The translations under genes and the position numbers were made by a program. A stretch of 64,000 nt of DNA from Rhodococcus erythropolis NBRC 15567 (GTDB lineage Bacteria; Actinomycetota; Actinomycetes; Mycobacteriales; Mycobacteriaceae), in NCBI RefSeq assembly GCF_001552595.1, contig NZ_BCRM01000003.1, positions 186,001-250,000 on the forward strand, given 5' to 3'. Below, piece after piece: positions 4,990 to 63,395 of this stretch; position 1 is the first letter of the stretch; each line of letters starts with the position of its first letter. The notes beneath the pieces were generated by a model, which was given only the letters and a program-made list of their open reading frames with translations, was not told where the DNA came from and did not search any database.

Positions 4990-6300
4990 GTGCCTACCGA
5001 CAAGACCGATGCAGTTGTGGTCGGAGCTGGAGTGATCGGCAGCTCCATCGCCTACGAACTGGCCGCTCGAGGCTACGAAGTCCTGGTCATCGACAAGTCT
5101 GGTGGTCCGGGCTACGGCTCGACCAGTGCATCCAGTGCGGTCATCCGGTTCAACTACTCCACATTCGACGGTATGGCTGCGGCTTGGGAGTCGCTGCATT
5201 GCTGGCAAAACTGGAACGAGCATCTCAACGCGACAGTCGACGGCGCGCTTGCGAAGTTTCGGCAATGCGGGATGGCACTGCTCGATGTCGACGTCGCACC
5301 CCACGCGCGCACGATTGGACTGTTCGAGAAGATCGGAATCGACTACCAACTTTGGGACGCAACGACACTCGTCGAAAAGATTCCCGGTATCGACGCAGGT
5401 AAATACTATCCACCGAAGCCAGTCGACTCGGAGTCCTTCTTCGCAGATGCGGAAACCACGCTCGGCGCGCTGTACACACCGCAGGCGGGGTTCGTCGACG
5501 ACCCGCAACTGGCAGCCGCGAATCTTGCTGCGGCAGCACGTTCGCACGGTGCGGTTTTCGCATACAACACGCGTGTGGTGGCAGTCGAGCAGTTGCCTGA
5601 CGGCACCTGGCAGCTAGGGCTCGACGACGGGGAAAGTGTGAAATCCAAGATTGTCGTCAACGCCGCCGGCCCCTGGTCAGGAGCGTTCAACAAGCTGTCG
5701 AATGTCGGGTCCGACTTCAAGGTTTCGGTTCGGCCCTTGCGTCAGGAAGTCCATCACATCACCGCACCCACTGAGTACAACGACGACGAGATCCTCGGCC
5801 CGATGATCGCCGATTTGGATCTCGGAACCTACATGCGAGCCGAACCTGGAAACGGTTTCCTCGTCGGCGGAACCGAACCGGATTGCGATCCGCTCGAGTG
5901 GATCGACGATCCTGATACCGCAAACCCGAATCGCACTGTTGCCCGATTCGAAGCGCAGGTTTTCCGCGCCGCCAGGCGTTTCCCCACCCTGGAGGTCCCT
6001 TCACAACCGAAAGGTATTGCCGGCGTGTACGACGCAGCGTCTGACTGGACCCCGATCTACGACAAGACAGACAGACAAGGTTTCTACGTCGCCATGGGCA
6101 CCAGCGGGAACCAATTCAAAAATGCGCCCATCGCTGGGCGCCTCATGTCCAGGATCATCGACGAAGTGGAAGCTGGACACGATCACGACGCTGATCCCCT
6201 GACCTATGTCGGGATGCACACCGGGCTCGAAATCGACCTCGGCGCATTCTCCCGCCTTCGGGCACCCAATGCCGAGTCGACCGGGACGGTCATGGGTTAG
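4990..6300 (+). CDS. FAD-dependent oxidoreductase of the DAO family
   Basis: The 436 residues start with the dinucleotide-binding motif VVVGAGVIGSSIAYELAARG, continue with the glycine-rich STSASSAVIRFNYS that contacts FAD in DAO-family enzymes, and contain VVNAAGPWSG near residue 223 and GTSGNQFKNAPIAG near residue 377, both typical of sarcosine-oxidase or glycine/D-amino-acid-oxidase-like proteins. The reaction is probably oxidative deamination or demethylation of a secondary amine or amino acid. The GTG start at 4990 is preceded by AAAGAGGGG. It follows the MHS transporter in the same direction and ends at a strong palindrome. The true substrate is unknown. Confidence 0.85.
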   Translation: MPTDKTDAVVVGAGVIGSSIAYELAARGYEVLVIDKSGGPGYGSTSASSAVIRFNYSTFDGMAAAWESLHCWQNWNEHLNATVDGALAKFRQCGMALLDVDVAPHARTIGLFEKIGIDYQLWDATTLVEKIPGIDAGKYYPPKPVDSESFFADAETTLGALYTPQAGFVDDPQLAAANLAAAARSHGAVFAYNTRVVAVEQLPDGTWQLGLDDGESVKSKIVVNAAGPWSGAFNKLSNVGSDFKVSVRPLRQEVHHITAPTEYNDDEILGPMIADLDLGTYMRAEPGNGFLVGGTEPDCDPLEWIDDPDTANPNRTVARFEAQVFRAARRFPTLEVPSQPKGIAGVYDAASDWTPIYDKTDRQGFYVAMGTSGNQFKNAPIAGRLMSRIIDEVEAGHDHDADPLTYVGMHTGLEIDLGAFSRLRAPNAESTGTVMG

Positions 6301-6350
6301 AAGTCTTGTCCGGCTTGGAGAATCGACAGCCGCGACAACTGAATAGACAC

Positions 6351-6388
6351 GGCTGTGGGTGTCCACCACGTGGTGGACACCCACAGCC
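6351..6388. terminator. 38-bp perfect palindrome between convergent genes
   Basis: Two 19-base arms (GGCTGTGGGTGTCCACCAC and its exact reverse complement) abut with no spacer. The palindrome lies between the convergent stops of the FAD oxidoreductase (6300) and the esterase (6464). It is best read as a bidirectional transcription terminator, although no T-tract follows on the plus strand, so other roles cannot be excluded. Confidence 0.7.
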
Positions 6389-6463
6389 GACTTCTCCTTC
6401 AACGGCGTCTACGGAAAATCGCCCTAGAACGTGTCAGCGGCACATCGCCTCCGGGACGGAGAG

Positions 6464-7336
6464 CTAACGTGCATGGCAGGTCTTCAAGTAGCTCAGGAAC
6501 GATGCCTGCAGCCCGGTTACGTGCGTCTCGTGCAACAACGCGGTCGAAACATCCTGCGACCGTCCCTTGCCATGCAACTGCTCCACGACGGCGAGAACGT
6601 TGCGTGACAGTCCGCGATAGATCGGAATGGGTCCAGTCAGTTCGGCTTCGTTCAGCGTGACGTGCAGCTGCGGAACAACTGAGCCCACGCCACGCTCGGG
6701 CAGTGCCTCGACCAGTGTGTGGATCTGGCTGTCGGCGTTCACAACTCCGGGACTACCCGCACCGAAGGTCGCGAATGGGGGCGCGTCGCGCAGCCATGCG
6801 TAGAGGGCGAAAAGGCCTCCGTACGAGTACCCGAAGAGTCCGTGCCCGGACTCGCTGACACGTAGCTCCGACGAGTACAGGCGAGGGTGGAGTTCGTTGG
6901 TCAGGAAGTCGAGGAAGACGTCCCCGTGGGTGTCTGCCAGCTCCTCGAGGTAGGCGTCCACGTACTCCTGGGTCATTGCACCCGAGTCGCGAGCAGCGGC
7001 AAGAGTAGCCATCATTTCTTCGCCTACCGGTTCCCCAGGCGGCACGAGATCGCGGTTGCGGAGCCGTGCCCAGTTGGCGGCTTCCTCACCGGCATATCCG
7101 ACACTGACCTGAATGTACGGGGCGACCGTCAGGTACGGGTCTGCCTGCGTGACGATGAGCGGGGCGGTAAGACCTACAGCCCAGTTGCCGTCCATCACGT
7201 AGATCAGCGGTAAGGGATCCGTGGAGTCCGCGTAGCCGGGGGGTGTGGTCACCCAGACGCCGTAGCTGTGCCCCGACTTCGCCGTTATTTCGAAGTACTC
7301 CGTGTCTGCAAAACATCCGTGCAGCATTGCGCTCAT
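6464..7336 (-). CDS. alpha/beta-hydrolase, esterase-D/IroE-like
   Basis: The 290-residue protein begins with GHSYGVWVTTPPGYADST and LIYVMDGNW (residues 22-52), the start of the PF00756-type esterase fold in which the chain enters after a substrate-facing strand. The nucleophile elbow is GLFGYSYGGLFALYAW (GYSYGG, near residue 169), and a C-terminal ETHVTGLQASF probably supplies the catalytic histidine. No signal peptide is present, so it is cytoplasmic. Its ATG overlaps the stop of the upstream amidohydrolase by 4 bp, so the two are translationally coupled. The substrate is probably an ester or peptide-like compound handed on to or from the amidohydrolase. Confidence 0.82.
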   Translation of the reverse strand: MSAMLHGCFADTEYFEITAKSGHSYGVWVTTPPGYADSTDPLPLIYVMDGNWAVGLTAPLIVTQADPYLTVAPYIQVSVGYAGEEAANWARLRNRDLVPPGEPVGEEMMATLAAARDSGAMTQEYVDAYLEELADTHGDVFLDFLTNELHPRLYSSELRVSESGHGLFGYSYGGLFALYAWLRDAPPFATFGAGSPGVVNADSQIHTLVEALPERGVGSVVPQLHVTLNEAELTGPIPIYRGLSRNVLAVVEQLHGKGRSQDVSTALLHETHVTGLQASFLSYLKTCHAR

Positions 7337-22241: not shown

Positions 22242-22955
22242 TCAAACGAGCCCAACCTGGCGCAGCCAGTCGTCGAGTGCACCCCCTGCCTCGGCCACTG
22301 CCTCCCCCCGAGCTGTGAATCCGGCGCCAATGATCGCGTCGGGACACAGTTCTTCGTAGACACTCGGCACTCCGGACAGCCCACTGACCGCGTGAGTGGT
22401 GATCGGATAGATGGTCACGCCAGCTAAATCCAGGGATTCGACGAACGTGTGCATGATCATCGGTGCGCTGCTGTTCCACACCGGGCTTGCCAGTAGAACG
22501 ATCGAATGTGTCCCGAAGGAGGACAGCTGGTTGGCAATGATGGGCCGCACGTCGTCGCGTTGCTCGTTCCTGTTCCTCTCGACCGTTTCCTCGTAGTCGA
22601 ACGGGTACGGGTCGGCCGGTTCGATCTTGTGCACGTCGCATGAGAGGCGACTACGGATCATCCCGACCAGAACCTCGGTGTTGCCAATCTCGAGTTCGGT
22701 CCGATCTCCGTAGTAATAGTTCTCTCCGGATCGCGAGAAGTAGGCGAGTAACACCGACCCGGATGCTGCGCGTCGGGTCGGGTCGGTGGTCCGGCTAGGC
22801 GCAGTACTCGTTGGTACGTTCACGCCAGAATCGGGGGCGCATCCGGCTGCGATTCCGGCCAACCCGGCCACCCCGAGGGCGAGAGTGCCCCCGACGGCGG
22901 ACCGTCGCGAAACTTGACGTGGTCGGTGGGATTGGCTGTGGGGTGTCTGCTGCAT
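22242..22955 (-). CDS. exported flavodoxin-like lipoprotein
   Basis: The 237 residues start with a Tat-type signal (QVSRRSAVGGTLALGVAGLA) and a lipobox-like GIAAGC (Cys near 39), then a Pro/Thr/Ser linker and a flavodoxin domain. VLLAYFSRSGENYYYGDRTE (residues 73-92) is the FMN-phosphate loop region of the flavodoxin_4 group, and VLLASPVWNSSAPMIMHTFV forms the second flavin-side segment. It probably binds FMN at the outer face of the membrane and acts in electron transfer or quinone reduction. An upstream site (22986-23010) matches motifs seen before other redox genes in this window. Confidence 0.82.
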   Translation of the reverse strand: MQQTPHSQSHRPRQVSRRSAVGGTLALGVAGLAGIAAGCAPDSGVNVPTSTAPSRTTDPTRRAASGSVLLAYFSRSGENYYYGDRTELEIGNTEVLVGMIRSRLSCDVHKIEPADPYPFDYEETVERNRNEQRDDVRPIIANQLSSFGTHSIVLLASPVWNSSAPMIMHTFVESLDLAGVTIYPITTHAVSGLSGVPSVYEELCPDAIIGAGFTARGEAVAEAGGALDDWLRQVGLV

Positions 22956-52682: not shown

Positions 52683-53540
52683 TCAGCGCTCGGCTGTTTC
52701 TTTCCACATGAGCGCGCGGCGCGAGATCATGAAGACGATGCGGTCGAGGGCGAAGCTGATGGCTGCGAGCACTACCACCGAGGCGAAGGTGCCTGCGGCG
52801 TTGAACTGTGCTGCGTTGGACGAAAGCATGTACCCCAATCCCTCACTACCGGTGAGGAATTCCGCGACTACGACGCCAACGAGCGCGTGTGGCACGGCCA
52901 GCTTGAGGCTTGCCACCACCCACACGAGGGCCGACGGGAGTCGCACGCGCATCACAAGGTCCCATTGAGACGCACCGGCGATACGGACCTGGTCGATGAA
53001 TTCTTGCTTGACGTCTTTGATACCGAAATACACGTTGTAGAAGATCAGGAAGAAGACCACGATCGCCGACACACCGACCGCGAGCGACCTCCCGATTCCG
53101 AGCCACAGGATCAGCAGCGGCACTAAAGCCACGACGGGAATGCCGTATGCCGCAGCGACGAACGGCTCGAGGACCATCGAGACGGTCTTCGACATCGCGA
53201 ACAGGTAGCCGAGCACGAGGGCACTGATCCCACCGATGAGGAAACCCTGCGCGGCAGGCACCATCGTCGCCATGATGTTCGTCCACAGGCTGCCGTCGAG
53301 GATCCAATCCCAGATCTCTTCGGCCACCGCGGTCGGCTCGGGCAGATAGAACGTGTCAACGAGGGTGCCGGCCGCCACCGACCACAGAATCAGGAACACC
53401 ACCACGGCGCCGAGCCGAGAGGACGTCTGAATCCACGACTTTCGCTGACGCTTCTTCTTTCCCAGCATGCTCGCTTTCGCCACTGCCGCGACGGCGTCGT
53501 CCCGGTCCGGGGTGACCACTTCTTCGATGTTCGTACTCAT
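52683..53540 (-). CDS. ABC transporter permease (SsuC/TauC type)
   Basis: The 285-residue protein has a polar N-terminus of about 35 residues, then about six helices (LGAVVVFLILWSVAAGTLVD first) and the permease loop FIDQVRIAGASQWDLVMRVR followed by LPSALVWVVASLKLAVPHAL. A single permease gene is present, so the channel is probably a homodimer. Its ATG overlaps the ATPase stop by 4 bp. It is the last gene of the four-gene importer operon with two binding proteins. Confidence 0.9.
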   Translation of the reverse strand: MSTNIEEVVTPDRDDAVAAVAKASMLGKKKRQRKSWIQTSSRLGAVVVFLILWSVAAGTLVDTFYLPEPTAVAEEIWDWILDGSLWTNIMATMVPAAQGFLIGGISALVLGYLFAMSKTVSMVLEPFVAAAYGIPVVALVPLLILWLGIGRSLAVGVSAIVVFFLIFYNVYFGIKDVKQEFIDQVRIAGASQWDLVMRVRLPSALVWVVASLKLAVPHALVGVVVAEFLTGSEGLGYMLSSNAAQFNAAGTFASVVVLAAISFALDRIVFMISRRALMWKETAER

Positions 53541-54358
53541 GGCGTAATTCCTCGCGCTCTCTGCAACGACCGGTGCAGCGTTTGGCCGATTTCGCGGAAG
53601 CCTTCGTCGAAACGTAGGGTGTCGGGATCTCGCTCCGGGCCGAGATCGATGGGAATGTCGTCGATGATGTGGCCGGGCGAGCCGCCGATCACGACGACCC
53701 GCTCGGACAGCAGCGCAGCCTCTTCGAGGTCGTGTGTGACGAACAGGACTGCGACACCGGTGTCGCGGACAGCGGCCCGCAGGTCACGCTGGAGTTGTGC
53801 ACGCATCTGGGCGTCGAGCGCGGCGAACGGCTCGTCCATCAGCAGCAGTTCGGGCTTGTAGATCATTGCGCGAGCGAGCAGTCCGCGCTTCTTCATTCCG
53901 CCGGAGAGCTGCGCTGGGTAGCGGTGACCTGCGTGGTCCAACCCGAAATTCAGCAGCAGTTCGTCGACTCGGTCCTTTATCTCGCTCTTGGCGACCTTGC
54001 GCATCTTCAGCGGAAGACCGATGTTCGCGGCGAGTGTCAGCCACGGAAGCATGGTGTCTTCCTGTGTCACGTACCCGACCTGACGGTTGACGCTCGTGAT
54101 CTTCTTCCCACCGAAGAATATCTCGCCGCGGTTCGGCTTCAGCGTTCCCGCAGTCATGTTCAGCAGCGTCGACTTCCCGCAGCCCGACGGGCCGAGGAGG
54201 GTGACGAACTCTCCTTTGTCGACGCGAAGGGAGGTGTCCGACAGGACATCCACATCGCCGGTAAAGCTGACGGCGACCTTCTCCACACGCAGCAGATCCG
54301 TGGTGTCGATCTCCCGGTCCGACACGGCGGGTGCGTTTCTAGTCTTGAGCAGCGCCAT
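53537..54358 (-). CDS. ABC transporter ATP-binding protein (SsuB/TauB type)
   Basis: The 273 residues contain Walker [21 protein letters not shown], the Q-loop YVTQEDTMLPWLTLAANIGL, signature LSGGMKKRGLLARAM, Walker B ELLLMDEPFAALDAQMR and the switch His in FVTHDLEEAALLSE. It belongs to the nitrate/sulfonate/taurine ATPase group. Its ATG lies 20 bases inside the end of the second binding-protein gene, arising from the conserved codons for Val-Thr-Tyr, the same arrangement as between the two binding-protein genes. Confidence 0.92.
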   Translation of the reverse strand: MALLKTRNAPAVSDREIDTTDLLRVEKVAVSFTGDVDVLSDTSLRVDKGEFVTLLGPSGCGKSTLLNMTAGTLKPNRGEIFFGGKKITSVNRQVGYVTQEDTMLPWLTLAANIGLPLKMRKVAKSEIKDRVDELLLNFGLDHAGHRYPAQLSGGMKKRGLLARAMIYKPELLLMDEPFAALDAQMRAQLQRDLRAAVRDTGVAVLFVTHDLEEAALLSERVVVIGGSPGHIIDDIPIDLGPERDPDTLRFDEGFREIGQTLHRSLQRARGITP

Positions 54359-55421
54359 AAGTCACATCCTCGTAGTTGACATCGTCATATGCGGCTACTC
54401 CTTCGGGATCGTTCTCGACCCAGAAGTCGTAGGAAGAACGCGGGAAGGTCGGCGCGTCTGGGTAACCCCCCGCGGACTCCTCCCATGCCAGATCCCAGAC
54501 ACCTTGATCCAGTGCGGGGAAATACTCGGCCTTGAGGACAGGACCGAGGGCATCCCGTTCAGTCTTAAGTGCATCGAGCGCATCGGCCATCACGTCGCGG
54601 AACTTGTCGACGGACTCGGTGTTCTCGTTCACCCAATCGGTGCGTCCGACGATTGCGAGAACCGGAACGTCGGCCGTGGCTTCGATGTCACCGCGTGGAC
54701 CCGAAATCCACACCACCGCACCGCTGTTGATGATGGCCTGCTCGACGATGCCGCTGGCCGTTGCGATCGCGTCGAACTGACCCTGAGCCAGCCCGGTCAC
54801 CAGCGCGTTCGGATCCTGGATGCCAACCATCCTGACGTCCACGTCCGGGTTCATGCCGAACCTGCCCAACTCGTTCCTCAATAGGGTTTGGTAGGTCGAA
54901 CCGGAGGGGTTGGTGCCGATGGTCAACCCACGAAGTGCCTCCATCCGTTCCGCAACGGGTGCATCAGGAGTGATACCCAGACGGGCGATGACGTCTGGAC
55001 GGATCACCATGACCTGCTGATTGTTGGCGATCGAACCGAGGATCGTCAGCGGCGCCCCTTGGCGGATCGCCGCGAGAGCTGACGGTGGGCCCGCCAACGC
55101 CAGATCTGCATCTCGAGACAGCACCGCCTCGATGCTCAACGTGCTGGACACACCGGCCTGGTCGAGTTCGACGTCCAGGTCGTGAGCGGCGTCCAAGTCC
55201 TGCGCCGCCATCACGAGCGCAGTGGCATTCGTGAAGGTTGCGACGGACATCTTGATATCGACAGGCGTGACACCTTCGGCAGTGGTTCGTTTCTCGCTCC
55301 CGCATGCGCTGAGCGTCAAGATCAACGCCACTGCGGCAACGACGATACGCCTGGTTCGTGAGCCTGCCCCGGTAGCGCCGCAACTCGCCGCGGCGGTGTG
55401 TCTAGCCCTTCGCGGGTGCAT
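54339..55421 (-). CDS. ABC transporter substrate-binding lipoprotein, tandem copy 2
   Basis: The 360-residue protein has an N-terminal Arg-rich region, the signal IVVAAVALILTLSAC with a lipobox (Cys near residue 40), and an SsuA/NrtA-like binding domain. Long identical blocks such as SSTLSIEAVLSRDADLALAG, RMEALRGLTIGTNPSGSTYQ and INSGAVVWISGPRGDIEATA are shared with the neighbouring copy, so the genes are a recent tandem duplication. Differences concentrate in the first 80 residues and in VDVRMVGIQDP-type positions. The ligand is probably a pathway substrate; taurine-like or aromatic compounds are possible. Confidence 0.9.
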   Translation of the reverse strand: MHPRRARHTAAASCGATGAGSRTRRIVVAAVALILTLSACGSEKRTTAEGVTPVDIKMSVATFTNATALVMAAQDLDAAHDLDVELDQAGVSSTLSIEAVLSRDADLALAGPPSALAAIRQGAPLTILGSIANNQQVMVIRPDVIARLGITPDAPVAERMEALRGLTIGTNPSGSTYQTLLRNELGRFGMNPDVDVRMVGIQDPNALVTGLAQGQFDAIATASGIVEQAIINSGAVVWISGPRGDIEATADVPVLAIVGRTDWVNENTESVDKFRDVMADALDALKTERDALGPVLKAEYFPALDQGVWDLAWEESAGGYPDAPTFPRSSYDFWVENDPEGVAAYDDVNYEDVTYGAAQD

Positions 55422-56439
55422 AGGTCACATCCTCGTAGTTGGCATCTTCATACGCGGCAACACCTTTCGGATCGTTCTCGACCCAGAAGTCGTAGGAGGA
55501 GCGCGGGAAGGTGGGCTCGTCGGGGTACCCGCCTGCAGACTCCGCCCACGCCAGGTCCCAGACCCCTTGATCCGTCGCGGGAAAGTACTTTTCCTTGAGA
55601 ATCGGGCCGAGGGTGTCGCGGTCGGACTCGAGCGAATCGAGCGACTCCCCCATGGCGGCGCGGAACTTGTCGACGACTTCGGCGTTCTCGTTGACCCAAT
55701 CGGTGCGGCCGACCATGGCGAGAACCGGAACGTCGGCAGTCGCTTCGATGTCACCGCGCGGTCCCGAAATCCACACCACCGCACCACTGTTGATGATTGC
55801 CTGCTCGACGACACCGCTGGACGTCGCAACCGCGTCGAACTGCCCCTGAGCGAGACCCGTGACCAGAGCGTTGGAATCCTGGATGCCGATCAGCTTGACA
55901 TCGTTGTCGGGGTTCAATCCGTACCGACCCAACTCGTTTCGTAGGAGAGTTTGATAGGTGGAACCGGACGGATTGGTTCCGATCGTCAGGCCGCGGAGGG
56001 CTTCCATGCGCTTCTCGATCGGCGCGTCGGGAGTGATACCCAACCTATCGATTACGTCCTGTCGAATCACCAGCACCTGCAGGTTGTTCGCAGTCGAACC
56101 GAGGATGGTCAGCGGAGCACCTTCGCGCATCGCGGCCAGAATCGACGGCGGGCCAGCCAGAGCGAGGTCTGCGTCGCGGGAAAGGACTGCCTCGATGCTC
56201 AACGTGCTGGAAGCGCCGGCCATGTCGAACTGAACATCGAGGCCGTGAGCTGCGTCGATGTCCTGTGCGTCCATCGCGAGCGCACCGGCGATCGTAATAG
56301 TCGGGATAGACGTGTTCACGCGCAGTGACGTGACACCGTCAACCGTGGCCGGTTTGTCGTTACCCCCGCAGGCTGCCAGCGCCAGAATCGAGGTCACGGC
56401 AATAGCGGCCGCGCGGCGGCTCTGCTTGGTGGGTCTCAT
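55402..56439 (-). CDS. ABC transporter substrate-binding lipoprotein, tandem copy 1
   Basis: The 345-residue protein begins with RPTKQSRRAAAIAVTSILAL and lipobox LAAC (Cys near 24), then the SsuA/NrtA-like fold. It is the first gene of the importer operon, with operator f 53 bp upstream. Its last codons (EDVTYAPAKG) contain the ATG of copy 2, a 20-base overlap. The copies match in the hinge and most of the ligand-side segments but differ at the start of the mature domain (TSIPTITIAGALAMDAQDID against SVATFTNATALVMAAQDLD), a region that usually contacts ligand, so they may bind two related compounds. Confidence 0.9.
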   Translation of the reverse strand: MRPTKQSRRAAAIAVTSILALAACGGNDKPATVDGVTSLRVNTSIPTITIAGALAMDAQDIDAAHGLDVQFDMAGASSTLSIEAVLSRDADLALAGPPSILAAMREGAPLTILGSTANNLQVLVIRQDVIDRLGITPDAPIEKRMEALRGLTIGTNPSGSTYQTLLRNELGRYGLNPDNDVKLIGIQDSNALVTGLAQGQFDAVATSSGVVEQAIINSGAVVWISGPRGDIEATADVPVLAMVGRTDWVNENAEVVDKFRAAMGESLDSLESDRDTLGPILKEKYFPATDQGVWDLAWAESAGGYPDEPTFPRSSYDFWVENDPKGVAAYEDANYEDVTYAPAKG

Positions 56440-57950: not shown

Positions 57951-59219
<1,269 letters not shown>

Positions 59220-59356: not shown

Positions 59357-60145
59357 CTACGCCGGTCCGGACAGTTGGAAACGTCCACGAATGGCGTCGA
59401 GGTCACTGAGCACGCGTGGAGACTCGACGGCCAGTGGCAAGTTGTCGCGATCAAGTGGCCCGTCGAGAGTTGTTTCCGAATCCGGTTGAAGTGCGGCAAA
59501 AAGCGGAGTGAGGTCGCTCTGAGCCTCTCCCTGCTCAGCGACGAGTTCGAACGTCTTGTGGTCGGCCGTGTCCGCGTTCAGAGCGGCGATGAGGACTTCT
59601 GCGATCTGCTGGCGGGAGATCACGCCGTCAGAGGGATCACTTGCCCACCGTCGGTCACCCTGCAGCATGCCGACGTGATGTTCGTCTGGTTTGTTGTAGT
59701 CGAACCACCCCGGCCGCACGATCGTGTACGGCAAGCCACTTGCCCGTACCAGGCGTTCACCGCGGCGCTTCCAATCGTGGCCGGGCGTGGGTTTGGTGAC
59801 GCCGATCGTCGTCATCAGGGCAATCCGGGCCGGATGCTTCAAAGCGTCGAGCACGTTGCGGACAGCTCCGTAGTTGATCTGCTCAGCTTCACCGGCGCCG
59901 CCGTAGGTGCCATGTGTGAAGACGATCCCGTTGACTCCGTCGGAGACTTCCCCGAGCGTGTCGGGTCGAGTGAAATCGCCGACAGCGATTCGGGTGCCTT
60001 CTGGGAACAGGGAGGACTGGGCCGGGTCGCGAACGAGCGCCGTCGTGTCCAATCCGACGCGCATGGCTTCGGCCACGACAAGCTGGCCGATACTGCCTGA
60101 TGCTCCGACAATGAGTACCGAGTCCACCGAAAATCGTTGATCCAT
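59357..60145 (-). CDS. NmrA-like/SDR-type NAD(P)-binding protein
   Basis: ATG 60145 begins MDQRFSVDSVLIVGASGSIG; the frame upstream to 60211 crosses an operator and is not coding. The 262 residues contain the extended-SDR nucleotide site VLIVGASGSIGQLVVAEAMR, ALVRDPAQSSLF (Arg after beta-2, NADP-type), GVNGIVFTHGTYGGAGEAEQ and SGLPYTIVRPGWFDYNKPDE, but no clear YxxxK pair. This suits the atypical 'NAD(P)H-binding' NmrA/NAD-dependent epimerase-like group. It may be a sensor or quinone/flavin reductase. Operator D-type motif lies 32 bp upstream. Confidence 0.82.
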   Translation of the reverse strand: MDQRFSVDSVLIVGASGSIGQLVVAEAMRVGLDTTALVRDPAQSSLFPEGTRIAVGDFTRPDTLGEVSDGVNGIVFTHGTYGGAGEAEQINYGAVRNVLDALKHPARIALMTTIGVTKPTPGHDWKRRGERLVRASGLPYTIVRPGWFDYNKPDEHHVGMLQGDRRWASDPSDGVISRQQIAEVLIAALNADTADHKTFELVAEQGEAQSDLTPLFAALQPDSETTLDGPLDRDNLPLAVESPRVLSDLDAIRGRFQLSGPA

Positions 60146-60177
60146 ATTTTCGACGCTACGGCTGAGAGGGCCGAAGT

Positions 60178-60203
60178 GGGAGGAACCGTTGATACACCGA
60201 TAC
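60178..60203. promoter_or_regulatory. GGGAGG-ACTGCC family operator upstream of NmrA-like gene
   Basis: GGGAGGAACCGTTGATACACC followed by GATAC is a diverged copy of the second motif, 33 bp upstream of ATG 60145, in the narrow gap to the FMN-binding lipoprotein gene. Confidence 0.42.
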
Positions 60204-60217
60204 GCAGTCACCCCTTC

Positions 60218-60667
60218 CTACTCGGGCACGCGCGCCTGTTCACGAATCTTCGCGATGGCGTCGTTGAAACCATCGGCGCAACCGCTGGCGCCGGCCAGAA
60301 CGCCGACCTCCGCCTCATCGAGGCTCTTACCGATCACCGCTTCCGGTACAGCGGCAGCGAACCGCTCCTGGTAGCCGCGAGAAGTGTCGTTGTTCTCCGG
60401 CATCGGTTCGACGGCGACATCGCTGATCGTGTCGTCACTGAGCGTGACCGTGATGGTCATGTACGACGGCGCGCCACCGTAAATACCCCTCTCGGTAAAA
60501 GTGCCGTCTTCGTATTCGTTACTGCGCGAGTCCGTTTCGGCGATGCGAGAGCCCGTACCGTTCGACGGCGTGGTGGTGCCGGGATTGCTGCACCCGACAA
60601 CATGCAACAACACGGTCAGCGATGCGGCCGCGACAAAGGTCGCGCGAACAAAGTTGTGAGACTTCAT
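60218..60667 (-). CDS. FMN-binding domain lipoprotein
   Basis: The 149-residue protein (ATG 60667) has a lipoprotein signal (MKSHNFVRATFVAAASLTVL ending VVGC) and a small domain with YEDGTFTERGIYGGAPSYMT, ITVTLSDDTISDVAVEPMPE, and GKSLDEAEVGVLAGASGCAD. The VLAGASGCADGFNDAI segment resembles the FMN_bind (PF04205) site 'SGAT.T' where a flavin is attached to a Thr or Ser; here Ser-Gly-Cys replaces Ser-Gly-Ala-Thr. It is 50 bp downstream of the ApbE gene, whose product attaches FMN, so it is the likely acceptor. Confidence 0.75.
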   Translation of the reverse strand: MKSHNFVRATFVAAASLTVLLHVVGCSNPGTTTPSNGTGSRIAETDSRSNEYEDGTFTERGIYGGAPSYMTITVTLSDDTISDVAVEPMPENNDTSRGYQERFAAAVPEAVIGKSLDEAEVGVLAGASGCADGFNDAIAKIREQARVPE

Positions 60668-60717
60668 AGTTCCCCTTTCTGATGACTGTGAGCTGAGTTT
60701 CGGTACACGCCGGTATG

Positions 60718-61608
60718 TCAGAGGAAGAGCTCTCCGGCGAAGTCGTTCGACCATTGCACTCTGCCGTCGGCAAGCATGCGCACCCAGCTGAACTCGAAGG
60801 AACGCAAGGACTCTGGGGCACTGACAAACAATGCGGTCGCCAGCCCGTCGGCGGTCGCAGCGTCAGCGGCCATCACCCAGGTTGCGATAACGTCGGTAAC
60901 AGGTTGCCGAGTCCGTCCGTCGAGGACGTGGTGCAGCCCCTTCCCCCAGGCACGCCGGGTGGTGGCCGAGGCACACAGTGCTGCGTTCCGAAGGGGAACG
61001 GTGCCAATGACTCTCCCTGGCAAAGAAGGATGTGCCAGGCCGACGGTGAGCGGTTCCGGTCCGCAGTGTCGCAGATCGCCACTCCCGTCGACGAGGAATG
61101 CTCCGATACCGACATCCAGCAGCGTCTGGGCGATGAGATCGACCAAGTGTCCCTTGCCCGCCGCACCGACGTCGATCACCACCGGACGAACGGTGGTAAT
61201 CGTGGACTCAGTCCGGTCGATATCCGAAAGCCAATACTCCCTGCGCTGGCGTCGAGCGATCCCGACCTCGTCAGGCGCCAGTGTGTAATCGGCGTCATAA
61301 CCGAGCAGTTCGAGATCGCGTCCGACGAGCGGATCCACCGCGCCGCCCGTCGCGGCAACCAGCCGGTCGTACAGTTCGAATAGCGCTACGTCACACTCAG
61401 GGAACTCGTACTGTCCGCCGTTTTCGGCGTGCGCAATCCGGGTGATAAGCGAGTCCGCGCGGAATCGGGACCAGACGTGGTCGAAGTCTTCGGTGAGCGC
61501 GCCGATCCTTTGTCGCAACCCATCCAGCACCGGGTTCTCGGTTGTGATCGCCCAGTCGGTGCCGATTGCTTTGAACCGAAACACCGATCGAGCGTCCGCC
61601 CTTTTCAC
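60718..61608 (-). CDS. apbE: FAD:protein FMN transferase
   Basis: The 296-residue protein (GTG 61608) matches ApbE: FKAIGTDWAITTEN near the start, ALTEDFDHVWSRFRADSLIT, GGAVDPLVGRDLELLGYDAD, VVIDVGAAGKGHLVDLIAQT, VDGSGDLRHCG and TWVMAADAATADGLATALFV with the metal-binding Asp. ApbE transfers FMN from FAD to a Thr/Ser of target proteins outside the membrane. No obvious signal peptide is visible, so it may use another route or act inside. Directly downstream is a lipoprotein with an FMN-binding domain, its expected substrate. Confidence 0.88.
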   Translation of the reverse strand: MKRADARSVFRFKAIGTDWAITTENPVLDGLRQRIGALTEDFDHVWSRFRADSLITRIAHAENGGQYEFPECDVALFELYDRLVAATGGAVDPLVGRDLELLGYDADYTLAPDEVGIARRQRREYWLSDIDRTESTITTVRPVVIDVGAAGKGHLVDLIAQTLLDVGIGAFLVDGSGDLRHCGPEPLTVGLAHPSLPGRVIGTVPLRNAALCASATTRRAWGKGLHHVLDGRTRQPVTDVIATWVMAADAATADGLATALFVSAPESLRSFEFSWVRMLADGRVQWSNDFAGELFL

Positions 61609-61647: not shown

Positions 61648-62529
61648 TCAGGCCTCAGGGATGTCCCGGTGGAACGCCTCGAGGGTCACCGAAACCGGGT
61701 CGGGACCGCCGCGCACGCCAGTGTTGAGCGCGTCGATTGCACCGAGTTGGGCGGTGCTGAGTTCGAAGTCGAACACATCGAAGTTCGACGCGATCCGCTC
61801 CGGGTTGACGGACTTGGGGATGGCCGACCGCCCCTCCTGCACATGCCAGCGCAACATGACCTGCGCGGGAGTCTTGCCATGAACGTCTGCAATCTCGCCG
61901 ATCACCGGATCATTGAACGTCGACCTGTCGCTGTCGCCTCGGTAGCTGGTGATCCCTCCCATCGGTGACCAAGCTTGGGTAAGCACGCCGTGCTCCGCAT
62001 TCGCCTTCTGCACCTCTGGCTGAGTGAAGTAGGGATGCACCTCGACTTGATTCACCGCAGGCACCACATCGGTCTGTTCGAGAAGCACTGCGAGGTCGCC
62101 TGGCATGAAATTACTGACACCGATCGCGCGAACCCTTCCATCCGTCAGCAGCGTCTCGAGCGCCTTGTAGGCGCCGACCGTCCTCCCGAAATCGGTGGTG
62201 AGGGGCTGATGCAGCAAGAGCAGGTCGATTTGTTCGACACCAAGCTTGCCCGCGCTCTTGTCGAACGCATGCAGAGCCTCGTCATAGCCGTAGTCACTGA
62301 TCCAGAGCTTCGTCTCGATGAACACTTCCGACCGATCCAACCCACTGCGACGGATTCCTTCACCCACCTCTCGTTCGTTGAAGTAGGAAGCCGCGGTGTC
62401 GATCAGTCGGTAACCGACGCGCAGCGCCGCGGCTACGGACGACGATGTGGTCTCCGGCGGGGTCTGGAAGACTCCGAAACCCAGAGCGGGCATTTCGATT
62501 CCGTTGTTCAAAGTGAGATTCATGCTCAT
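61648..62529 (-). CDS. aldo/keto reductase (2,5-diketo-D-gluconate reductase-like)
   Basis: ATG 62529 overlaps the XRE regulator stop by 4 bp; ATG 62523, two codons later, is better spaced from AAGGAA and may be the true start. The roughly 292-residue barrel has GFGVFQTPPE, YRLIDTAASYFNEREVGEGI (Asp/Tyr), VFIETKLWISDYGYD (Lys) and IDLLLLHQPLTTDFG (His), with IPKSVNPERIASNFDVFDFE for NADPH. This is the typical soluble AKR5-type reductase of small ketones or aldehydes. It is coupled to the regulator, so it is probably part of the regulator's own operon. Confidence 0.9.
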   Translation of the reverse strand: MSMNLTLNNGIEMPALGFGVFQTPPETTSSSVAAALRVGYRLIDTAASYFNEREVGEGIRRSGLDRSEVFIETKLWISDYGYDEALHAFDKSAGKLGVEQIDLLLLHQPLTTDFGRTVGAYKALETLLTDGRVRAIGVSNFMPGDLAVLLEQTDVVPAVNQVEVHPYFTQPEVQKANAEHGVLTQAWSPMGGITSYRGDSDRSTFNDPVIGEIADVHGKTPAQVMLRWHVQEGRSAIPKSVNPERIASNFDVFDFELSTAQLGAIDALNTGVRGGPDPVSVTLEAFHRDIPEA

Positions 62530-63395
62530 TTCCTTACGTCTGTTTTCGGTGGTGTCGTGGCAGCGAGACTGCCGAGGAGCTTGAGACGGTCTTCGGAGGC
62601 GCTGCCAGGTTCAGCGGTGTAGGCGAACATGAACCACTCCGGATTCGCCGGAAGGCCCATCGCTTCGTAGGACAATTCGAGATCGCCGACCGCAGGATGG
62701 TGGATACGTTTGATCCCCGCCCGATGGTGGCGAACATTGTGAGCTGCCCACCTGCGCCGGAAAGTCTCACTGCGCGTGACGAGTTCGCCAATCAGATCGG
62801 TCAACCGCCGATCGAGCGGATTCTGCCCGGCGTAGATGCGGAGCGTCGCGACGATGTCGTCGGCATTGCGCTCCCAGTCGGGGAAGAAGGTTTGCGCCGC
62901 AGGATCGAGAAAGGTGAATCGGGCGGAGTTTCCCTGGTTGGCCGGGTCATCGAAGAGGGGCGCGTACAGCGCCCGCCCAAGTGAGTTTGCGGCAACGAAG
63001 TCCATGCGCTGATCCCGCACCCACATCGGCGCGCCCGTCACCGAATCCAGGAAACGCTGCAAGGTGGGTTTTACGGTCTGCTCTCCGGGCCGGGTGCGTC
63101 GGCGCGGCGGTGGGGGTCCAGCGGCACGAGCAAGGTCAGCCAGATGGTCGATCTCGGCGTCGTCGAGCTGAAGGGCTTTGGCGATGCTGTCGAGAACTTC
63201 CGAAGAAACACCGGCCAGGTCGCCGCGCTCCATCCGGGCGTAGTACTCCACGCTTACACCAGCAAGAAAAGCGACTTCTTCTCGGCGCAGTCCGGACACC
63301 CGGCGACGACCGCCTCCGATAATCCCCGCCTGTTCCGGCTTGATCCGGTCCCTGCGAGTGCGCAGGAACTCAGATACTTGTGCACGATGGTCCAT
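62526..63395 (-). CDS. XRE-family regulator with MmyB-like ligand-binding domain
   Basis: The 289-residue protein has an N-terminal helix-turn-helix: RVSGLRREEVAFLAGVSVEY and ARMERGDLAGVSSEVLDSIA (residues 32-72), then a C-terminal PAS-like MmyB domain (MWVRDQRMDFVAANSLGRAL, FPDWERNADDIVATLRIYAG, LELSYEAMGLPANPEWFMFA). These regulators usually repress or activate an adjacent SDR or AKR gene in response to a small ligand. It is operonic with the aldo/keto reductase. A copy of the second motif lies 33 bp upstream, and others lie before the flavodoxin, cupin/SDR, MFS 41610 and NmrA-like genes. Confidence 0.9.
   Translation of the reverse strand: MDHRAQVSEFLRTRRDRIKPEQAGIIGGGRRRVSGLRREEVAFLAGVSVEYYARMERGDLAGVSSEVLDSIAKALQLDDAEIDHLADLARAAGPPPPRRRTRPGEQTVKPTLQRFLDSVTGAPMWVRDQRMDFVAANSLGRALYAPLFDDPANQGNSARFTFLDPAAQTFFPDWERNADDIVATLRIYAGQNPLDRRLTDLIGELVTRSETFRRRWAAHNVRHHRAGIKRIHHPAVGDLELSYEAMGLPANPEWFMFAYTAEPGSASEDRLKLLGSLAATTPPKTDVRK

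Follow-up and report, generated by a model that had tools for sequence, protein, structure and literature searches.

A putative FMN-carrying lipoprotein and its neighbouring ApbE in an aldo/keto reductase-linked gene cluster of Rhodococcus erythropolis

ApbE enzymes attach FMN covalently to a substrate motif, D-x-x-[S/T]-G-A-[S/T], with the flavin placed on the last residue (PMC12052999). Among the closest described counterparts of the locus reported here are the NQR/RNF-like clusters (Meheust et al. 2021, PMC8238504), in which a homologous FMN domain likewise adjoins ApbE; those clusters carry an NqrB/RnfD-type membrane subunit, whereas the relatives of our locus carry aldo/keto reductase (AKR) genes (PMC8238504, PMC11334425). 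Flavodoxin_4 and FMN_red proteins flavinylated by ApbE are also substrates outside membrane complexes with a Ser/Thr acceptor, but their folds differ from that of our lipoprotein and they occur mainly in Firmicutes (PMC11334425). The cytosolic ApbE of Klebsiella resembles ours in having no signal peptide; its substrate is a soluble fumarate reductase, whereas here the candidate substrate bears an export signal (PMC12052999).

Among PF04205 (FMN_bind) proteins, SaFMN3-D2 and the C-terminal domains of NqrC and RnfG have the same three-strand, two-helix fold as the lipoprotein modeled below, and likewise place the acceptor motif directly ahead of the second helix. Identity between the lipoprotein and the listed solved FMN_bind structures is only 8–20%, its acceptor is a Ser in AGAS and not the Thr in SGAT of the solved domains, and, unlike the known PF04205 examples, it has no Pfam match and carries the domain alone on a lipoprotein. 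We regard the pair as related to, but diverged from, known FMN_bind/ApbE pairs. Its assignment as an FMN-type lipoprotein with its ApbE is supported by the conservation of synteny, by the fold and by the motif, and we consider it probable that this neighbouring ApbE places FMN on Ser128 of the lipoprotein. The genes lie in a window of 64,000 nucleotides (the whole stretch of DNA analysed) and comprise the following features:

62526..63395, minus strand: HTH regulator with an MmyB-like ligand-binding domain, overlapping the AKR1 start (PF17765, E 4.3e-57)
61648..62529, minus strand: aldo/keto reductase AKR1, DkgA-like, without an export signal (PF00248, E 4.8e-44)
60718..61608, minus strand: ApbE, FAD:protein FMN transferase, without a visible signal peptide (PF02424, E 8.8e-40)
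60218..60667, minus strand: FMN_bind-type lipoprotein of one domain, 149 aa, predicted ApbE substrate (open reading frame, ribosome-binding site, homologues, AlphaFold2 model)
60590..60667, minus strand: signal peptide and lipobox VVGC of the lipoprotein, with Cys26 (read from the sequence)
60221..60514, minus strand: FMN_bind-type domain, residues 52–149, three strands and two helices (alignment, AlphaFold2 model)
60278..60295, minus strand: putative flavinylation motif A125-G-A-S128-G-C130, predicted acceptor Ser128 (alignments)
59357..60211, minus strand: NmrA-like NAD(P)-binding protein (PF13460, E 2.3e-29; PF05368, E 2.7e-9)
57951..59165, minus strand: Tat-type lipoprotein aldo/keto reductase AKR2, with an SRRKFLL motif and a lipobox (PF00248, E 1e-62; signal read from the sequence)

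In the ORF table, apbE runs from 61608 to 60718 and the lipoprotein gene (149 codons) from 60667 to 60218, 50 bp further downstream on the same minus strand, which bears out the arrangement given in a preliminary description of this DNA. The gene order on the minus strand is HTH regulator, AKR1, apbE, lipoprotein, NmrA-like and Tat-type AKR2. Gaps of −4, 39, 50 and 6 bp, measured from the longest frames of the table and the lipoprotein ATG at 60667, separate the first five genes (regulator to NmrA-like), a spacing compatible with one operon; the longest NmrA-like frame begins 6 bp past the lipoprotein stop, and AKR2 follows 191 bp beyond the NmrA-like gene. The lipoprotein ATG is preceded by an RBS-like agaaagggg. 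A longer frame starting at 60754 was rejected as unnecessary, since it would run into apbE. Read by eye, the N-terminus, MKSHNFVRATFVAAASLTVLLHVVGC, resembles a lipoprotein signal with Cys at residue 26. AKR1 matched the NCBIfam DkgA model at E 6e-74 with 248.6 bits, under its equivalog cut-off of 425. In GC content, the cluster is unremarkable within 50–64 kb. Nearby, at 54339–56439, the window encodes two similar tandem NMT1-type substrate-binding lipoproteins (one of the two was scanned), upstream of an apparent ABC ATPase and permease at 52683–54358, as read from the ORF table.

Profile searches with the lipoprotein alone found nothing in Pfam at E≤1 or in NCBIfam at E≤0.1, which leaves it outside FMN_bind (PF04205) by profile membership, and PF04205 had no match at E≤0.001 anywhere in its own genome. 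Homologues came from plasmids, searched with tblastn (4 records), and from genome contigs, whose scan gave 334 relatives, of which the best 80 were used. PF04205 matched at E≤1 in 38 of 57 aligned family proteins, the window's among the 57, with a best E of 4.3e-6. An AlphaFold2 model built from 54 of the 57 aligned rows has three strands and two helices, with pLDDT block means of 86–98 from residue 51 onward. Among 993 PDB chains aligned with VIA-align, the top match was SaFMN3-D2 (PDB 8p2a; Z 10.5, rmsd 2.1 over 87 residues, chain length 89), a covalent FMN domain, followed by CPE2226 (Z 8.5), NqrC domains (8.0–8.4) and IscU chains (7.9–8.1). Since IscU chains reach such values, SaFMN3-D2 alone stands clear, and it is its Z of 10.5, above the look-alikes at about 8, that identifies the fold. 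Foldseek by E-value was weak: its best match (E 1.1e-2) was an iron–sulfur assembly complex chain, with CPE2226 second. Of the sequence profiles compared with the PDB, A2 gave three matches at E 0.61–1.5, none of them an FMN domain, and A4 ranked 8p2a first at E 0.19, a match used for the motif register only and not as evidence of homology. An FMN_bind-type fold is thereby well supported by the model, and the lipoprotein likely binds FMN. The FMN-binding label of the preliminary description accordingly fails in single-sequence models (Pfam, NCBIfam) and holds solely through the homologues and the fold.

The alignment of profile A4 to SaFMN3-D2 (E 0.19) pairs its SGAT with Ala125-Gly126-Ala127-Ser128, the A-G-[S/A]-S columns of the family. 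Counts were made over 86 rows, namely the window, 84 loci (L013–L096) and L007. Gly126 and Ser128 are invariant (86/86), and position 130 is Thr in 82 rows and Cys in four. These four rows, the window, L017 from Micromonospora, L030 from Microbacteriaceae (a long branch of odd composition) and L049 from Sphingomonas, are exactly the ones with Ala127; the Cys state, at acceptor+2, needs two changes on the tree. The preliminary description had set Ala-Ser-Gly-Cys (127–130) against the usual Ser-Gly-Ala-Thr; this register is two residues off, as the SaFMN3-D2 alignment and the conserved columns put SGAT on 125–128. Its suggestion of attachment through Ser survives as to the residue, Ser128, and not as to the register behind it. 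Since A-G-A-S already supplies an acceptor Ser, neither a Cys nor a non-covalent exception needs to be invoked, though the second keeps some probability.

In the window, the consensus D-x-x-[S/T]-G-A-[S/T] reads G-V-L-A-G-A-S: the last three residues fit, with a Ser/Thr-type acceptor at a conserved position, and positions 1 and 4 differ, Gly replacing Asp and Ala replacing the first Ser/Thr. The position of the motif Asp, residue 122, is also variable in the family (Gly 30, Ser 27 and Asp 26 of 86). This Asp has been called essential (PMC10722498); in a review, by contrast, losing it is described as having minor effects (PMC12052999). On the alignments, Ser128 is the predicted FMN acceptor.

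The window's ApbE scored 137.3 bits with PF02424, against a cut-off of 25.6, and relatives of it were found in the PDB. Its Ser214, His227 and Asp254 match the catalytic Ser-His-Asp triad, described in Vibrio cholerae ApbE as Ser241-His257-Asp285 (PMC12052999). Ser214 and His227 are identical in 6/6 aligned sequences; Asp254 was paired with the E. coli Asp by reading the alignment, and the E. coli numbering was transferred to Vibrio by equal spacing.

The lipoprotein export signal typical of characterised ApbEs is lacking in the window's enzyme, where only 25 hydrophilic residues separate the upstream stop from the domain and the highest 12-residue hydropathy is −0.34; E. coli ApbE, as a control, reaches 2.68 on the same measure. 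We applied this measure across the family as a crude hydropathy rule (12 residues, mean ≥1.6; ApbE starts 15–60 residues upstream), which differs from a trained predictor. By it, none of 78 ApbEs has an export signal, compared with 79 of 84 FMN proteins with a signal-like N-terminus or lipobox, and fewer than 35 residues precede the ApbE domain in 44 of the 78 frames. With the longest frames instead, L019 (1.9), L035 (1.6) and L079 (2.3) reach the threshold; read by eye, the frames of L019 and L035 begin like an AKR, and the upstream frame of L079 has 865 residues. Without any start condition, one ApbE, L075, reaches 1.64. In L013, the last third of the enzyme seems disrupted; the locus was still counted as having ApbE. 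The FMN proteins that fail the test are those of L019, L031, L034, L036 and L048. In the Paenibacillus thalictri loci L034 and L036, a 312-aa frame has the FMN domain at its C-terminal end; the N-termini of these long proteins resemble S-layer homology domains, presumably a fusion, which suggests cell-surface anchoring.

By the hydropathy rule, lack of a signal likewise extends to the ApbEs encoded at rhizobial, cyanobacterial, Bacteroidota and Bacillota loci. The idea that a signal-less ApbE is special to the window cluster was abandoned, because 27 of 29 other ApbE loci of the class (L098–L126) were not flagged either; the two flagged, L115 and L118, look like stretches near or inside the ApbE domain, and the E. 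coli row of this test is an invalid control, the profile having begun inside its signal. A signal-less ApbE may therefore be the rule in the class.

In a tree of the FMN domain only, which has few columns for its rows and an arbitrary root, the window falls in a 39-row clade (support 99/89) of Actinomycetota, Pseudomonadota, Cyanobacteriota, Bacillota and Bacteroidota, and the window and a Micromonospora row adjoin a Bacteroidota row (98/93). The list of AKR-clade loci had been set by eye from their neighbours, and these 38 loci and the window are the 39-row clade of the later tree. Neighbours were scored with tblastn (cut-off 1e-10), the queries being proteins of the window and reference proteins. 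The stretches fetched for this were no longer than about 12 kb, and some were shorter; the search for a nearby membrane partner covered the RnfD type. In the 38 other clade loci, AKR was detected in 36 (absent in L018 and L047), ApbE in 32 and RnfD in none; the window's own genome, too, has no NqrB/RnfD-type subunit by PF03116. In the 46 loci outside the clade, AKR was found in none, ApbE in all and RnfD in 42 (absent in L056, L058, L065 and L066). These 46 loci make up the remainder of the tree, not one demonstrated clade, and include the RnfD-linked loci of NQR/RNF-like type; of them, two Nocardiopsis rows lie closest to the AKR clade. As far as the titles and abstracts of the open-licence literature tell, an AKR–ApbE flavinylation arrangement was not found described, and the AKR-linked clade without an RnfD partner would be an undescribed arrangement within that literature.

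A Tat-type AKR was recognised in about 11 of the 38 clade loci (a pattern flagged 13, and L030 and L040 were dropped on reading). Other recurrent neighbours are alpha/beta hydrolases, MFS transporters, LysR regulators, cupins and carboxymuconolactone decarboxylase-type proteins. Two Agrobacterium plasmids have AKR genes on both sides of the locus and, between the FMN transferase and either a hydrolase or a protein of a peptidase family, a small protein annotated 'hypothetical protein'. The gene was present in 1 of 28 genomes of the genus, its own, and in a phylum sample at least 10 of 296 genomes had a match at E≤0.001, at least five of them, its own included, at E<1e-30 (with at most 12 candidates scored per genome). 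The presence in one of 28 genomes and the mixed-phylum tree suggest horizontal transfer. In the Micromonospora sp. CB01531 locus, a second copy of the FMN lipoprotein (L017:6877-7893) lies on the opposite strand, interrupted by unknown bases. The Cys130 variant from Microbacteriaceae PS02068 (L030) has no ApbE within its 12 kb, and a second contig of that assembly (L061) carries an FMN domain with ApbE and RnfD.

The preliminary description had joined the lipoprotein to a Tat-exported AKR and to a lipoprotein flavodoxin in a possible extracytoplasmic flavin redox chain. The former is present at 57951–59165, and its link to the lipoprotein is strengthened by the AKR genes that accompany the clade in 36 of the 38 other loci. 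The flavodoxin exists as a Tat-type lipoprotein with a Flavodoxin_4 domain at 22242–22955 (PF12682, E 2.5e-15), with no SGAT-like motif within its first 130 residues; the connection itself falls away, as the gene is about 37 kb distant and none of eight scanned neighbour proteins of related loci is a flavodoxin. It was dropped as a component of the system.

Searches of the own genome located ApbE matches in four places (five matches, two of them in one frame) and no match to the FMN_bind, NqrB/RnfD (PF03116) or DUF2271 models, these three families defining the substrate search. With no match to the three families, the lipoprotein beside apbE is the leading candidate for the substrate.

In the mechanism we propose, ApbE, lacking a visible signal, would take FAD in the cytosol and transfer FMN to Ser128 of the unexported, unfolded lipoprotein; the flavinylated precursor would then be exported and lipidated at Cys26, and outside the membrane the lipoprotein would act as a one-domain redox carrier for products of the cluster, including the Tat-type AKR. 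Computation gives the two paired genes, the fold, a motif whose acceptor Ser is invariant, the ApbE and AKR linkage across five phyla and the lack of a visible signal on ApbE; FMN attachment itself we infer. The contrast between 0/78 signal-positive ApbEs and 79/84 FMN proteins makes cytosolic flavinylation before export a likely reading, and for the order itself, modification ahead of export, we see about even odds. Export of a flavinylated precursor through Sec is not known to us. A 7-residue tag is enough for ApbE to act on, and one in vitro attempt failed with a target presumed to be completely folded (PMC12052999, PMC10722498), so that modification before folding is possible. A redox role together with the AKRs is put forward tentatively, and electrons would in that case pass from AKR to flavin in a putative extracytoplasmic redox chain. 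A bolder version, which we think rather improbable, is a horizontally spread flavinylation system without a membrane redox subunit, in which a cytosolic ApbE loads the precursor before export and the FMN domain exchanges electrons with a Tat-exported AKR that carries its nicotinamide cofactor out in the folded state, the bound nucleotide being regenerated outside the membrane.

Other readings of the pair have to be weighed against FMN on Ser128. The FMN_bind fold could have been kept while FMN is bound non-covalently or is absent and ApbE serves another protein. The two departures from the motif consensus, the position of the window protein below Pfam detection and the six of 38 AKR-clade loci without ApbE in the fetched stretch (one of them the Cys variant L030) would all suit such a case, but we judge it unlikely given an acceptor Ser conserved in every row, an ApbE in 78 of the 84 fetched stretches and an own genome without a match to the three known substrate families. 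The recurrence of Cys130 in 4/86 rows, always with Ala127 and by two changes on the tree, raises the thought of a flavin bound through or involving this residue, as a thioether or phosphorothioester. Such a linkage is very improbable: Ser128 is kept in all four Cys rows, Thr occupies position 130 in the 82 others, the known acceptor aligns with 128, and ApbE acceptors are Ser or Thr according to the review (PMC12052999). Cys130, two residues beyond SGAT, was accordingly discarded as an acceptor on the motif definition of that review and the SaFMN3-D2 alignment.

ApbE might also leave the cytosol by a route that needs no classical signal and attach the flavin outside the membrane; in favour of this, the majority of ApbEs characterised are periplasmic lipoproteins (PMC12052999). 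The absence of a hydrophobic N-terminus in all 78 ApbEs (from starts 15–60 residues upstream), the short stretch before the domain in 44 of them and the precedent of a cytosolic ApbE in Klebsiella (PMC12052999) argue against it, and we give it little credence. Finally, the pair could be what is left of an ordinary electron-transfer module of the NQR/RNF-like kind after loss of the membrane subunit at this locus; the outside-clade loci do combine the FMN domain, ApbE and RnfD-like genes (RnfD in 42/46), in a layout resembling the NQR/RNF-like clusters of PMC8238504. We find this quite doubtful, with RnfD nearby in 0/38 AKR-clade loci and no PF03116 match in the own genome: AKR linkage replaces RnfD across five phyla, which speaks for a stable arrangement and not a local loss.

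Systems of this kind, whose FMN domain escapes Pfam and whose ApbE has no signal, could be overlooked in surveys. Genomes with an orphan apbE remain, as a published survey notes, and the AKR-linked clade may supply a partner for some of them. The pairing of a signal-less ApbE with an exported substrate in five phyla raises the question of whether FMN is attached before export. Elsewhere in the own genome, on contig C29, another signal-less ApbE gene (5812–6753) lies beside a gene that we take to encode a ferric-reductase-type membrane protein. Its start is overlapped by a 91-aa Ser/Thr-rich frame (L142:5540-5815) with a hydrophobic N-terminal stretch, which ends in KLSSGSSTSHARSAGS and is a possible domain-less ApbE substrate.
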